Positions 41,636-47,470 of a stretch of DNA of 59,518 nucleotides are shown here, in pieces (position 1 is the first letter of the stretch; each line of letters opens with the position of its first letter). The stretch lies in NCBI GenBank assembly GCA_002862205.1, contig PKCN01000006.1, positions 1-59,518 on the forward strand. Reading direction: 5' to 3'. The notes beneath the pieces were generated by a model, which was not told where the DNA came from, made no database searches, and was given only the letters and a program-made list of their open reading frames with translations. The translations under genes were made by a program, and so were the position numbers. Source of the DNA: Planctomycetaceae bacterium. Its GTDB lineage: Bacteria > Planctomycetota > Planctomycetia > Pirellulales > Pirellulaceae.

Positions 41636-42064
41636 CCAGAATTGCTCCGAAGGGTCTACGTGTGGCTTGTTTGTTTGATTGCCATCCGTTGCATCTACAG
41701 TGCCGAAAACTCGGCAGCTGACTCACACCGAGCGCATAACCCTTTTGCAGCAAACCACTTAAAACACAATCCTTGCCATTTCATAAAAAACACACGTTGA
41801 TAAAAAGCAACGTGGTTTCGGCTTGGCCTTGCACTCTAAATCTTGGTATGGAAAGAGCTTACGCCGGCAGCGGAGGCTAGCAACTCTGTGTGGAGTTTTT
41901 TCAACACCACGTCGCTTTCACCACACACCTGGATCTGTGTACGCCTGGGAGAGAGGTCGCGAGAGGCGATTCCGAAGCGTTCGCCAGATTGTTTCCGCTG
42001 CTCACTCCACGGTCAATGATCGATGCCATCACCTCAGCCCGCAATCACTGAAATGCCGCCAAAC
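41636..42064. other. Divergent intergenic region
   Basis: About 430 nt between the divergent 96-residue protein gene and the 900-residue secreted protein gene. CACGTTG (41793-41799) and CAACGTG (41808-41814) form a 7-bp inverted repeat with an 8-nt A-rich spacer, either an operator or a hairpin. No gene is supported. Confidence 0.4.
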
Positions 42065-44767
42065 ATGCAACCTCGGCAAGCCTTGCGTTTTGCCGCTGCT
42101 TGTCTAGCTGGGTTGAGTTGGCTGTTTGCCACAGCTGGATTCGCCCAGATTTTTGATTCGCTGGATGCCTATCCACCGCGTTGGCATCTGGAGAACTCAG
42201 ACTGCGACGCTCGCGTGACCTCACAGGGACACTTGGCAGAAGGCGGCGTGAATGCAGGGGCATGCGAAAACTTGACTTTGCTGGCCGGAAACGGCACCGA
42301 GGCGCTGCTGGTCTACCCGATTGAACCAGTGCAGCCTCTGGATGACCTGACGGCTACGGTTTCGGTCATGAGCGCAAAGAGAGGTGCCCAGGTTGGTTTT
42401 CGCATTCGCTACCCCTATCTGAATGACCCCGAAACAGGTCGGCCAGTCTCGGTTGTGGTTTACGGCGCCAGTTACCAATCCCCTAGCGAGTTTGCCTCGA
42501 TTGGGGTTGGTGCGATCGAGCGGCAAGTCCGCTTGAAATCAGTTGCAGTTCGCCGCGAATATGGCAGCAAAGCTGATTTGCAGGATGCATACGTGGACGG
42601 AATTGTCATCAACGCTTACACCGGTGCAGGGCGATCCGCTTTGCGGATTGATAATCTGCGAGTCAATGGATTGATTCCTGTGGGTGAAGGAATCGCGACA
42701 GGGAATCGCCCACGCCCGCAAGCCACGGTGGTCATGCGGGCTGGGACAACGGGCGGGCCACCACGACGATCAGAGACCCCTTTTGTGCCCGGCAAGATCA
42801 TTCGAATTTTGCAACATAATGGTGAGCCCCTGGCTTGGGTCCGTTCACTTGGATTTGATGCCGTCCTGTTATCCAAACCGCCCGATGTGGCGATTCTCAG
42901 CGAGGCGATCCGCTCACGTGTTCTGATTTACGCCCCACCACCGACATCCCCCGATCCGGAAATACAGGCTTTACTGGAACCCGTTGCTGCGTGGTACATC
43001 GGCATGGGCAAGGCGTTGGATAGTCGTCAGATCGACGACGCAACTCAAACGACCCAACGCTTGAAAAAATGGCCCAGTCGCTGGCAACGCCCGATGATTG
43101 GCGCTCCGTCGGAATCATGGCGGGACTACGCGTCGCTATTAAGTTCCATCATTGATGATCTTCCCCATCGCGTCAGGGGTTTGAACGGTGACGAAGAACT
43201 GGCGCAGATGACTCAAAGAAGGCGGAAGTTGGGCAACCGGATCCCATTGGGTGTCGGGATTGTCAGCATGCCCCCCCAGCCAATGCTCCGGCAGGTCGAG
43301 GCGATTGCTCAGGCCATCGGTGCCCCAGCACCTCAGAGATTCCATTGGCATGCAATGTGGCTCCAAGCGATGCGAAGCCTTGAAGTCACACCTTCGGCGA
43401 TCCTTTACCGCTCGACTCGTTCACTCACATCAGGTGATTCACTCGATGAGCAACGGGCCATGGCACTGAGCTATGTCAATCGAATGGTCGCCATGATCAG
43501 TCCGTGGGTCGTCTCTGCTACCCCCATGACGCCTCCCCGTCTTGCGGGAGCCAATTATCGTTGCACACGACTGGTTACCAACCAGACTGATTTACTGATT
43601 GCAACCTCAACGGCGCAGCGAGGATCCGAGGTGCTCGCTGGTGATGGCGCAACCCTGGACCTCTTGCTAACCCCTGCCGATGCAGCCAAAACAGCATGGA
43701 GATTGACCCACTTCTCTGCTGAACGCATCACGCCCGAATTGACACCCTCGGGTGCGAGGCTCCGAATCGTTTCACCCGATGCAGCCGAGATTCTGATGCT
43801 CAGCAGTGATCCTGCAATGGGAGGACAAGCAAGCCTCTCCGCTCAAAGATTTGCAAGACAGGCTGCGTTGGACCGGTGGCAATTGGCTAGCAACCTGGTG
43901 GCCCAAACCTCTCAACACTGGCAAACCGCGATCGCAACACGCGCCGCTAACCGACAATCCATCTCCAACCTCGTTGGCGTTGCTCAGCAGACACTATCCG
44001 AAGCAGAGCCAATGTTCCGCTCGGGCGATATCGACAGCACACTTAGAATGGCTTGCCGAGCGGACGCCTGGGCAATGCGAAGCGAATGGCAACTTGCCGA
44101 AGCACTCATGCCCAATTGGCCCATGAGAACCAGTTGCCCACCAATCGATATGGGCGCCGCGGAAATACAGACCGTCTGGCGACCACTGATGGATGACCCT
44201 GGCTGGGGACGGAATCTGCTGACCAGCGGCAACCTGGACACCAAGGATTTGATCGGCAACAACCGCTGGACGTTTGGCAAACGCCTGACAACACGTGCCC
44301 ACAGTGAAATGCTTCATATCACCCGTGGAGCCTACGAGGGGCCTGGCGCACTGCGAGCACGAGTGACCTCACTGACGGATGAACCTCTGCCGGGAGGCTA
44401 CGAGGGAACTGTGGTGCAAATCCAAAGCCCCTCGGTGCGCATTTCCGCCGGTCGAGCAATCCGAATCGACGCAAAAGTTCGCACCCTCGGTTTCGGTGGC
44501 CCTCATCAGGGACTACTAATCTACGACAGCATCGGCGGACAACCGATGGGAGTGTTGATTCGCGGTCAAGCCGACTGGGCGACGGTTCGCCTGTACCGCC
44601 AAGCGACTGAGGAAACCGAAGTCCATGTCATGTTTGAGTTGATAGGCGGCGGCGAAGCCACCATCGACGAAGTCGAACTCCGACTCTGGCAACCAGATGC
44701 GATTGGACCGCAACCGATCACGCGTCCCATTGCCAATACTGACCCAAGTGCTCCCCAACGACGGTGA
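42065..44767 (+). CDS. Large secreted protein of unknown function
   Basis: About 900 residues. A signal peptide (LRFAAACLAGLSWLFATAGFAQ) is clear. The N-terminal ~200 residues read as a beta-sandwich (FDSLDAYPPRWHLENSDC through ALRIDNLRVNGLIPVG). A middle part of about 330 residues has alternating helix and strand with the feel of a degenerate TIM barrel (SLGFDAVLLSKPPDVAIL, PLGVGIVSMPPQPMLRQVEA). A helical section and a second beta-sandwich (LRARVTSLTDEPLPGGYEGT to ATIDEVELRLW) close the chain. This resembles a glycoside hydrolase-like core between two carbohydrate-binding modules, but no catalytic motif was identified. Starts at 42023, 42053 or 42065 are possible; no strong ribosome site decides. 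Confidence 0.75.
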   Translation: MQPRQALRFAAACLAGLSWLFATAGFAQIFDSLDAYPPRWHLENSDCDARVTSQGHLAEGGVNAGACENLTLLAGNGTEALLVYPIEPVQPLDDLTATVSVMSAKRGAQVGFRIRYPYLNDPETGRPVSVVVYGASYQSPSEFASIGVGAIERQVRLKSVAVRREYGSKADLQDAYVDGIVINAYTGAGRSALRIDNLRVNGLIPVGEGIATGNRPRPQATVVMRAGTTGGPPRRSETPFVPGKIIRILQHNGEPLAWVRSLGFDAVLLSKPPDVAILSEAIRSRVLIYAPPPTSPDPEIQALLEPVAAWYIGMGKALDSRQIDDATQTTQRLKKWPSRWQRPMIGAPSESWRDYASLLSSIIDDLPHRVRGLNGDEELAQMTQRRRKLGNRIPLGVGIVSMPPQPMLRQVEAIAQAIGAPAPQRFHWHAMWLQAMRSLEVTPSAILYRSTRSLTSGDSLDEQRAMALSYVNRMVAMISPWVVSATPMTPPRLAGANYRCTRLVTNQTDLLIATSTAQRGSEVLAGDGATLDLLLTPADAAKTAWRLTHFSAERITPELTPSGARLRIVSPDAAEILMLSSDPAMGGQASLSAQRFARQAALDRWQLASNLVAQTSQHWQTAIATRAANRQSISNLVGVAQQTLSEAEPMFRSGDIDSTLRMACRADAWAMRSEWQLAEALMPNWPMRTSCPPIDMGAAEIQTVWRPLMDDPGWGRNLLTSGNLDTKDLIGNNRWTFGKRLTTRAHSEMLHITRGAYEGPGALRARVTSLTDEPLPGGYEGTVVQIQSPSVRISAGRAIRIDAKVRTLGFGGPHQGLLIYDSIGGQPMGVLIRGQADWATVRLYRQATEETEVHVMFELIGGGEATIDEVELRLWQPDAIGPQPITRPIANTDPSAPQRR

Positions 44768-44936: not shown

Positions 44937-45152
44937 ATGCAACAAGTGAAACTATTCAAAAGTGTCGACAATGAACTTCCACAAATGGAAAACCAAATCA
45001 ACCGTTGGATGCGTAAGAGTGGTGCCCGAGTTCTTTCGATCAATGGCAACCTGACCTCCCAATCGGGTTCGGGCGATGGGCCTCTGAATTCGTTTGCTGC
45101 GGGTGACGTGCTGGTGATCGTGTTGTATGAGATCGACAAACCGGCAGGTTAA
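44937..45152 (+). CDS. 71-residue conserved-looking hypothetical protein
   Basis: A short protein starting MQQVKLFKSVDNEL. It has an amphipathic N-terminal half (ENQINRWMRKSGARVLSING) and a beta-type end (FAAGDVLVIVLYEI), which suggests a small alpha/beta fold. There is no signal peptide. Composition and the pattern of hydrophobic residues support a real gene; the GTG at 44904 would add an implausible stretch, so ATG 44937 is used. The ribosome site is weak. It is followed after 117 nt by the promoter of the structured RNA. Function unknown. Confidence 0.65.
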   Translation: MQQVKLFKSVDNELPQMENQINRWMRKSGARVLSINGNLTSQSGSGDGPLNSFAAGDVLVIVLYEIDKPAG

Positions 45153-45269
45153 CCGGAAAAATTCGGGTTCGTGGACATTTTCCGGACAAAAGTTTTGCGA
45201 ACGATGATTGCCATTGCGCGAACCAATGCGACACCTTGTCCGTCTCAAAGGGTGACAGCGTTTTTTCTC

Positions 45270-45298
45270 TTGCCGATCATTTGACTGGCAGTGATAAT
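45270..45298 (+). promoter_or_regulatory. Sigma-70-type promoter of structured RNA
   Basis: TTGCCG (45270-45275), a 17-nt spacer and GATAAT (45293-45298): 4/6 and 5/6 matches to the -35 and -10 consensus with ideal spacing. Transcription would start near 45305, just where the RNA structure begins. Confidence 0.5.
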
Positions 45299-45413
45299 AC
45301 TGCTGTCGGTTCGCGATAACGCGTCGCGAAAGACTTTTTAGTACGAGGAGTGGCTCTTTCTGGTTGGCACCCGGGCCGTGACTCGTCGAACCGTTTTGAA
45401 AGGAGGTGAGCAA

Positions 45414-45455
45414 GTGGATTATTGCTGTACTAGCCAACGGGGTGGAAACCCGTAG
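45414..45455 (+). CDS. 13-residue Cys-Cys mini-ORF
   Basis: GTG 45414 follows a near-perfect ribosome site (AAAGGAGG, 45399-45406) at 7 nt and opens a 13-codon frame reading MDYCCTSQRGGNP, then TAG. The frame is open upstream to an in-frame GTG at 45378, giving a 25-residue option (MTRRTVLKGGEQ added). The stop lies beside the GGAA hairpin. It could be a leader peptide sensing cysteine supply or a small protein of its own. The strength of the ribosome site, better than that of most large genes here, is the main evidence. Confidence 0.35.
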   Translation: MDYCCTSQRGGNP

Positions 45456-45526
45456 TTAAAGTCGGCGGGCCGATACTTCGGTATGGCCACCCCACTCGCA
45501 CATCGAACTGATTGCGAGCAAACAGC

Positions 45527-45569
45527 CCCGCCTGTCGAGACCACCTTGGTCTCGGCAGGCGGGTTTTTT
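45527..45569 (+). terminator. Strong rho-independent terminator
   Basis: A 17-bp stem with one G-U pair: CCCGCCTG (45527-45534) with CAGGCGGG (45556-45563) and CGAGACCA (45536-45543) with TGGTCTCG (45547-45554), a 3-nt loop, and six T at 45564-45569. It ends the structured RNA 204 nt before the lactonase start. Confidence 0.92.
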
Positions 45570-45582
45570 ATTGGGGCTTTGC

Positions 45583-45624
45583 TATGCTAAGCACCCGTTC
45601 GAGTATGCTAAGCACTCGTTCGAG
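45583..45624. repeat. 21-nt tandem duplication
   Basis: TATGCTAAGCACCCGTTCGAG at 45583-45603 and again, one base different, at 45604-45624, directly behind the terminator and upstream of the lactonase gene. Confidence 0.85.
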
Positions 45625-45772
45625 TAAGTTAGGCAGCCACAAGGATATTCGGCGGCCCTGCAAGAAGGCGTGTTCGTGCTTCCCATTGCTTGGACTCAAT
45701 CCGAAGTGCCCGCAATTCTGCTCGTGCGTGTTGAAACGCCCGAGCGCACCCCGCCCGCCAGGAACCCCATTC

Positions 45773-46957: not shown

Positions 46958-47470
46958 GCTGGTAACTCCCCACTACTGCTGGTGCGTGGATTTGCTGTTC
47001 GTCAAATCGAATTGCCGACGCTTGCTTCGAGCGCGAGCTCGACTAGCACCTTTGGTAGCTGAACGCTAGTTCTGCGCCACAGACAAATCAGACCCGAGGA
47101 CCGATCGCGAAATGGGTGACCTTGCCTGCTGCAACAGCTAGCTAGCCAAAAATCACAAGCCTTCCCGCTGCAGCTAAGCGAGATTATCTCATGTGCAAGC
47201 GTTAGCCACTTGCAGCATCGACCAGAGCAACGTGTGCCCAGAGTCACAGCACAGCGGGCGTAAGTGCCCAGAGTCACCGCACAGCGGGCGTAAGTGCCCA
47301 GAGTCACAGCACAGCGGACTCGTGTGCCCAGAGTCACAGCACAGCGGACTCGTGTGCCAGAGTCACAGCACAGCGGGCTCGAGTGCCCAGTGCAGACGAG
47401 ATTCACCGGCGAGGTCGACAGGAGGTGCTCTAGCAGTCGAGATGCAGCGAGCTGCGTACTGCACGCGGGC
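46958..47470. other. Intergenic region dominated by a minisatellite
   Basis: 513 nt between converging lactonase and BON-domain genes. The second half is the 30-nt repeat at 47234-47390. A minus-strand frame through it (47002-47406) translates into Cys-rich repeats and is not considered a gene. Confidence 0.5.
47234..47390. repeat. 30-nt tandem repeat, five copies plus partial
   Basis: Unit of 30 nt starting GTGCCCAGAGTCACAGCACA and ending GCGG plus a variable five- to six-base tail (GCGTAA or ACTCGT). Copies begin at 47234, 47264, 47294, 47324 and 47354 (29 nt, one C lost), with GTGCCCAG at 47383. Copies abut with no spacers, so it is not a CRISPR array. Confidence 0.93.

Follow-up and report, generated by a model that had tools for sequence, protein, structure and literature searches.

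The window analysed here, a 59,518-nucleotide stretch from a Planctomycetaceae bacterium (contig PKCN01000006.1), contains on its forward strand a predicted RNA gene with its own transcription signals, an extensively paired body and a mini-ORF whose codons themselves take part in pairing (Table 1). The elements are tightly packed, to the extent that the two final bases of hairpin H2 (45487–45488) overlap strand B3′. The minimum-energy fold of the locus has −112.8 kcal/mol and lies below all of 200 shuffled sequences (200/200; z −4.38). The UUCG tetraloop and the 13-codon ORF behind the Shine–Dalgarno (SD) sequence AAAGGAGGTGA, both read from the DNA in a preliminary description of the locus, are present. 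The same description had assigned the RNA to no known family, and Rfam 15 agrees: no family reaches its gathering cut-off in the window, and below threshold the region matches CrfA best (17.8 bits, where 38 are required). Plasmid records gave no match to the RNA, and the literature consulted on planctomycete small RNAs, RNA motifs, the peptide, SD usage, dual-function RNAs and Rhodopirellula-1 does not describe it.

Table 1. Features of the RNA locus, in window coordinates
Feature	Position	Strand	Remarks
Discrete RNA gene (predicted)	45270–45569	+	promoter, pseudoknotted body, extended SD, 13-codon ORF, intrinsic terminator
Sigma-70-like promoter TTGCCG-17-GATAAT	45270–45298	+	9/12 matches; aligned in relatives
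Transcription start (predicted)	near 45305	+	
H0, 5′ hairpin TTCGCGA-TAACGCG-TCGCGAA	45310–45330	+	matched stem changes; loop NNACG(C/T) kept
K5′, GTTGGC, domain II loop	45363–45368	+	partner: ORF nucleotides 45433–45438
Extended SD, AAAGGAGGTGA	45399–45409	+	GGAGG-to-GTG gap 7 nt
Mini-ORF, GTG start at 45414, 13 codons, peptide VDYCCTSQRGGNP	45414–45455	+	
Mini-ORF stop, TAG	45453–45455	+	
K3′, GCCAAC (S-Q codons)	45433–45438	+	pairs with 45363–45368
B5′, GGGGTGG (within R-G-G codons)	45439–45445	+	pairs with 45487–45493
Hairpin T, strand 1, GGCG tetraloop (45464–45467), strand 2	45456–45475	+	directly 3′ of stop
H2, hairpin GGCCgAUAC-UUCG-GUAUGGCC	45468–45488	+	covariation
UUCG of H2	45477–45480	+	read from the sequence
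B3′, CCACCCC	45487–45493	+	helix B covariation
H3, hairpin CTCGC...GCGAG	45495–45518	+	seen by eye in alignments
Intrinsic terminator, 17-pair stem + T6	45527–45569	+	

The promoter and the 17-pair terminator with its T6 tract, which had likewise been proposed earlier, are both in place. A scan for such sites proves little by itself, since it returned three promoter-like sites against a shuffle mean of 1.3, with an overlapping site at 45252–45280 of equal score, and three terminator-like sites against 3.1 in shuffles. Comparison of loci adds that a promoter with at least 8 of 12 matches lies upstream in 56 of the 80 H0-anchored loci (11% of shuffles), the end of the −10 element being 11 nt from H0 in 26 of these 56, and that a comparable terminator is present in 83 of 100 loci (2 of 500 shuffles). 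These figures point to a free-standing transcript with a promoter and a terminator of its own. Just 3′ of the terminator, a 21-bp unit is repeated 2.1 times (45583–45626), and a 30-bp tandem unit in 5.3 copies (47234–47390) separates the lactonase gene from the BON-domain gene.

BLASTN recovered the RNA in 30 of 60 genomes (counting the own genome): 21 of 22 in the own genus, 8 of 15 in the rest of the family and 1 of 23 in other families of the order. A covariance model built from 21 loci, with H2 as the sole structure included (R1), matched, within the order, 181 of 396 genomes, and among the matches listed there is a single one per genome except in G015 and G337. In the phylum, R1 matched 26 of 294 genomes; two of these matches (L217 and L218) are antisense 16S 3′ ends and were discarded as false. 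A second model for the deep-branching form (R2), trained on seven deep loci with no sequence from the own family, matched 90 of 392 phylum genomes, of which 8 belong to the own family (own genome included), 21 to other members of the class and 61 to lineages elsewhere in the phylum. The window locus is the sole R2 match in the own genome at E ≤ 0.01 (E 1.7e-4). Thirty R2 loci were fetched from the 90 match genomes, four of them from training genomes, and 28 combine a site resembling an SD with a terminated short ORF and a motif of the G[GA]CGG type, with the loop motif of deep loci defined more loosely (GTGGG also accepted); the other two, L297 and L299, failed the ORF check. When one form of the deep variant was searched as a pattern, 3 of 392 genomes matched. 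Both models include the SD–ORF stretch, so that loci lacking it would escape them. In the locus tables, L170 is absent, having been displaced by a spurious second match, and L236, which has no strict SD, was admitted under a looser rule.

With its two search models, the assignment to a new RNA family is well supported. Judged from the aligned loci, the RNA is conserved with matching base changes across the phylum, probably that of the planctomycetes, an attribution suggested by the gene content (DUF1501) and by the preliminary description. The preliminary description had staked its case on conservation and compensatory changes in related genomes, and both were found: the RNA recurs in half of the 60 genomes searched by BLASTN, and helices B, K, T and H2 covary, which places the observation beyond chance. 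The loci share kinship, so that all shuffle counts given here overstate significance.

The frame of the mini-ORF is maintained across the family, in which its length ranges from 10 to 16 codons. Among 119 locus entries (105 distinct), the start codon is GTG in 101, TTG in 18 and ATG in none, and the stop codon is TAG in 61, TGA in 31 and TAA in 27; in 86 distinct near-group ORFs, which leave out the deep loci L214, L215, L216 and L219 and keep L263, the stops are TAG 39, TGA 26 and TAA 21. The use of all three stop codons at a nearly identical place argues for termination rather than for a sequence motif. The start-to-GGTGG distance, which replaced ORF length in multiples of three because the latter is circular, amounts to 27 nt for 83 of the 100 distinct loci, with 16 of the 17 variants deviating by a multiple of three (all five deep loci, L214, L215, L216, L219 and L263, were left out of this test and of that for K). 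In 62 ORFs of equal length, differing codons are synonymous in 20.2% of cases in frame, whereas the shifted frames give 10.9% and 11.1%; the mean BLOSUM62 scores are 0.27 versus −0.16 and −0.25. From these comparisons we conclude that the frame appears to be under selection, and that it is the translation of the frame that is selected. The presence of an SD is partly given by construction, as the models contain the SD–ORF stretch, whereas the frame is not. The 11-mer AAAGGAGGTGA occurs four times in the 7.77-Mb genome, the same as the backward control, and the own 16S 3′ end was not found in the draft genome at up to one mismatch. Five ATG starts occur among 24 deep loci and rest on a looser SD-to-start spacing.

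Two helices, K and B, pair the codons of this frame into the RNA fold. For K, the matched pairing score over 98 near-group loci is 13.65 versus 11.91 (sd 0.19) after permutation, a value reached in 0 of 2000 permutations, and with one locus per distinct K3′ strand it is 12.39 versus 10.54. Examples of exchanged strands are GTTCGC/GCGAAC in L134 and CCGCT/AGCGG in L268; some near loci, such as L243 and L237, have no K. The helix is not part of the minimum-energy fold, and such folds cannot hold pseudoknots. For B, 86.0% of the cells are paired over 96 loci (0 of 500 shuffles as high) and 26 cells have changed on both sides versus 7.7 in shuffles (0/500). Two weaker measures give 5 pairs with double changes versus 3.2 (a value reached in 28 of 500 shuffles) and 13 pair types versus 10.8 (48 of 500). 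The chosen register is the best slide by paired cells and by covariation score, and slide +3 exceeds it in double-change cells (33). Variants include GGGGAAG/CTTCCCC, which keeps the amino acids R-G-S, as well as GGGGTCGT/GCGACCCC, GGGCTGCGCA/TGCGCAGCCC and GTGGGTTGCG/CGCAACCCAC. Folded as single sequences, B beats shuffles (at most 5 of 100 as good) in 59 of 100 near loci, with a mean of −20.6 versus −15.6 kcal/mol, and in 7 of 24 deep loci (−21.4 versus −17.9 kcal/mol).

The strand GGGGTGG had been proposed to choose between a local hairpin and pairing with the downstream CCACCCC. The long-range half of this proposal holds, in that all seven B pairs are present in the minimum-energy fold of the window copy and covary among relatives. 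The local hairpin spanning the stop codon fares differently: 12 of 108 loci have it better than shuffles (at most 5 of 100), and the window copy is not one of them (56 of 100). It was rejected as a general alternative fold.

The peptide itself has to be weighed as a possible effector. Under this reading the RNA would be a dual-function molecule whose structure merely sets the amount of a short active peptide, and the excess of synonymous changes and the better BLOSUM62 scores in frame fit it, as does an arginine at position −5 that is kept in 53 of the 62 equal-length ORFs (codons CGR 47, AGR 6). The codon bias is confounded, however, the R-G-G codons holding B5′ and the S-Q codons K3′; the peptide thus appears conserved in the near group, with a selection signal that both helices confound. 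The conserved cysteine codon is TGT in 49 of 62 ORFs and TGC in 1, which suggests a constraint at the RNA level. Beyond the near group, to which the consensus V[ED]xxC[TS]SQRGGxx is confined, the peptides are different: deep loci encode, for example, VKYDCTKGLRN, VSDCTKGLHS, VIDCTSRSGLR and VGSPNRRPSS, so that SQRGG, KGLR/KGLH and RRPSS alternate between lineages that all keep the SD, the short ORF, helix B and G[GA]CGG. Translation rather than the peptide is therefore what probably matters, and the odds seem clearly to be against an effector peptide. L236, which lost the SQRGG frame through a one-base difference, keeps helix B and an ORF of 14 codons that still ends close to the usual stop position; that the RNA persists there also counts against the peptide. 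The ending RGGNP is restricted to one part of the family, and the first of the two adjacent Cys codons encodes cysteine in 17 of the 62 ORFs, which disfavours a sensor of Cys starvation. The case for a Cys-sensing or peptide-effector reading built on the adjacent Cys codons and RGGNP is accordingly weak. The earlier suggestion that this is a new regulatory or dual-function RNA is supported in part, namely for the structured RNA, the translated-looking ORF and the alternative folds.

The alternative folds lie directly behind the frame, where hairpins T and H2 are mutually exclusive because both use the middle strand (strand 2 of T). In 87 sequences, T is paired in 82.1% of cells and has 75 double-change cells versus 32.8 in shuffles (0/500). 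This alignment (A8) comprises 87 of 105 rows, with the loop placed where the stem is longest, and a fixed anchor agrees with it, giving 80.2% paired versus 71.9% and 79 double-change cells versus 36.0 (0/1000). The T loop, G[GA]CG, begins 4–10 nt past the stop codon, and the stem has three contiguous pairs in the window copy and up to eight elsewhere; L250 has no T-type loop. H2 shows 105 double-change cells versus 36.1 in shuffles (0/500). Over the family, these data suggest what is also characteristic of attenuators, namely mutually exclusive hairpins that share a strand next to an ORF. The minimum-energy fold of the window copy contains neither T nor H2; the space inside B is taken by a third small hairpin. 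RNAalifold applied to the first MAFFT alignment (A1) found merely six pairs, without double changes, a poor result that is due to misalignment of the variable 3′ part.

At the 5′ end, H0 (searched 70–95 nt upstream) forms a stem of at least six pairs around an NNACG(C/T) loop in 80 of 103 loci versus 4 of 1030 shuffles. In part of the family, the loop region of H3 carries an GATCACCT-like sequence complementary to the SD. Pairing between SD and linker (at most 2 of 50 shuffles as good) is found in 35 of 107 loci, and the window copy is not among them (35 of 50); masking of the SD was therefore rejected as a universal feature. In L202, L228, L249, L251, L265 and others, GGATCACC(T) lies within a GGATC...GATCC hairpin 3′ of helix B. 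Its letters are those of the usual 16S rRNA 3′ end, which makes it a mimic of the anti-SD beside an extended SD.

Leader-peptide switches are known as appendages of the genes under their control, and the preliminary description had suggested that the RNA might be a leader of the lactonase gene. The attenuator-like anatomy fits this, as does a lactonase gene downstream in 12 of the 20 fetched same-genus loci. In six others of the 20 (L128, L131, L133, L134, L140 and L143) the upstream genes are preserved and no lactonase appears in the 1.5 kb examined, and the remaining two end at contig ends or gaps. Across the family, the nearest downstream ORF (at least 100 codons within 1.5 kb, called by length and not by annotation) shares the strand of the RNA in 39 of 76 loci and has the opposite orientation in the other 37, and upstream neighbours are almost equally divided (40 and 41). 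With two ORFs considered per side, no cluster of similar neighbours covers more than 5 of 83 loci; five of the 83 repeat a genome. Because downstream ORFs face both ways, the RNA is not a lactonase leader; this suggestion was rejected, and a cis-acting leader or attenuator of any neighbouring gene is very improbable. Among the 76 loci with a downstream ORF there is no shared or consistently oriented downstream gene, as would be expected of a riboswitch or of an RNA with a conserved cis target, nor the same-strand gene that belongs to an attenuator. Two genes upstream of the RNA have no Pfam match: a small ORF (44937–45152), which accompanies the RNA in 15 loci of the genus as well as in L144 (52–85% identity) and not in L135–L138, and a 914-aa protein (42023–44767) found upstream in 18 of the 20 fetched same-genus loci.

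tmRNA, too, is widespread and has a short frame enclosed in a pseudoknotted body. A degenerate or variant tmRNA, or another housekeeping RNA, would agree with the usual single copy, the wide distribution in the phylum and the short ORF in a pseudoknotted body. The tag frames of tmRNAs are not known to have an SD, whereas the window RNA has both an SD and a start codon; no tRNA-like domain was noticed in it, no Rfam family including RF00023 matches in the window, and the own genome has a separate tmRNA (G000:C255, 160.5 bits). Identity with tmRNA was rejected, and the housekeeping reading as a whole is very improbable.

Closer parallels are found among RNAs that are read by ribosomes. The trp-type ribosome-dependent attenuators combine a translated short ORF, mutually exclusive structures and an intrinsic terminator (PMC7298713). 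The likeness extends to the short ORF, whose frame and stop are conserved here, to the exclusive hairpins and to the intrinsic terminator; the differences are that the window RNA has no conserved downstream gene and no conserved run of sensor codons, and that its terminator lies outside the competing hairpins. The Sinorhizobium meliloti RNA rnTrpL (peTrpL) is an attenuator RNA with a 14-aa leader ORF that acts in trans (PMC7298713); it stems from a trp operon leader and begins with the ATG of that leader, whereas the window RNA belongs to no operon leader and carries an extended SD. The Downstream-peptide motif or yfr6 of cyanobacteria is an RNA of ~250 nt with a short ORF and indels in threes (PMC2864571), in which, according to that study, conservation is limited to the 5′ UTR with the ORF behind it, in contrast to the ORF of the window RNA, which is paired into the fold. 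The closest logic is that of trp-type attenuators and rnTrpL, with an anatomy that also recalls yfr6. The Rhodopirellula-1 candidate motif of 2010, compared here by its table entry, is given for Planctomycetes and Proteobacteria with cis-regulation marked 'y' and no Rfam accession (PMC2864571), and may be identical to the window RNA.

Taken together, comparison of the loci supports a promoter, a terminator, a short frame behind an extended SD, helices K and B, and the alternative of T or H2; transcription, translation, switching and output are what we infer from these. We tentatively favour, with a chance just short of even, a ribosome-operated switch encoded by a free-standing gene of ~265 nt, with an output most likely in trans, as no neighbouring gene is common to the loci. 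Without a ribosome, the RNA would adopt a closed form with K, B and T, in which the SD might additionally be masked by the GATCACCT-like loop in part of the family. A translating ribosome would have to open K and then B. The footprint of a ribosome at the stop codon would span strand 1 of T, because this strand starts directly 3′ of the stop; strand 2 could then pass to H2, and the CCACC and GATCACC strands would be freed. The peptide would probably be a by-product, and the output in trans could consist of the freed anti-SD-like strands pairing with mRNAs, or of the binding of a protein or of the ribosome. The lack of T and H2 in the minimum-energy fold of the window copy slightly lowers the probability of such a switch. 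A more far-reaching version, which is conceivable and yet rather unlikely, would make this a phylum-wide class of RNA with the ribosome as its ligand and an irrelevant peptide, in which a ribosome that has bound the extended SD and stands at the stop codon flips K, B and T to H2 and thereby releases anti-SD-like strands (CCACC, GATCACCT) that broadcast the state of the ribosome or of translation in trans.

The same SD could instead serve a ribosome decoy or hibernation RNA, in which the extended SD and the locked ORF would trap 30S subunits or stall 70S ribosomes under stress. The long SD at a fixed spacing and the GTG or TTG starts in 119 of 119 near-type locus entries are compatible with such a role, as is the position of K and B just beyond the footprint of an initiating ribosome, the start-to-B distance falling below 27 nt only in L234 and L236 among 100 loci. 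In deep loci, however, B is nearer to the start, and a conserved stop codon, a conserved frame and an exchange between T and H2 would be superfluous for a decoy, which we regard as improbable.

The preferred reading, that of a ribosome-operated switch, is of interest in a phylum in which the species studied have a small share of SD-led genes (PMC5397173), and in a wider PVC group for which one table gives eight described small RNAs in all (PMC9029176). What is found here is an anatomy like that of a leader peptide, standing alone, usually present once per genome, and extending across a phylum for which small RNAs have rarely been described. Should the switch prove real, this RNA would be a ribosome sensor that acts in trans.
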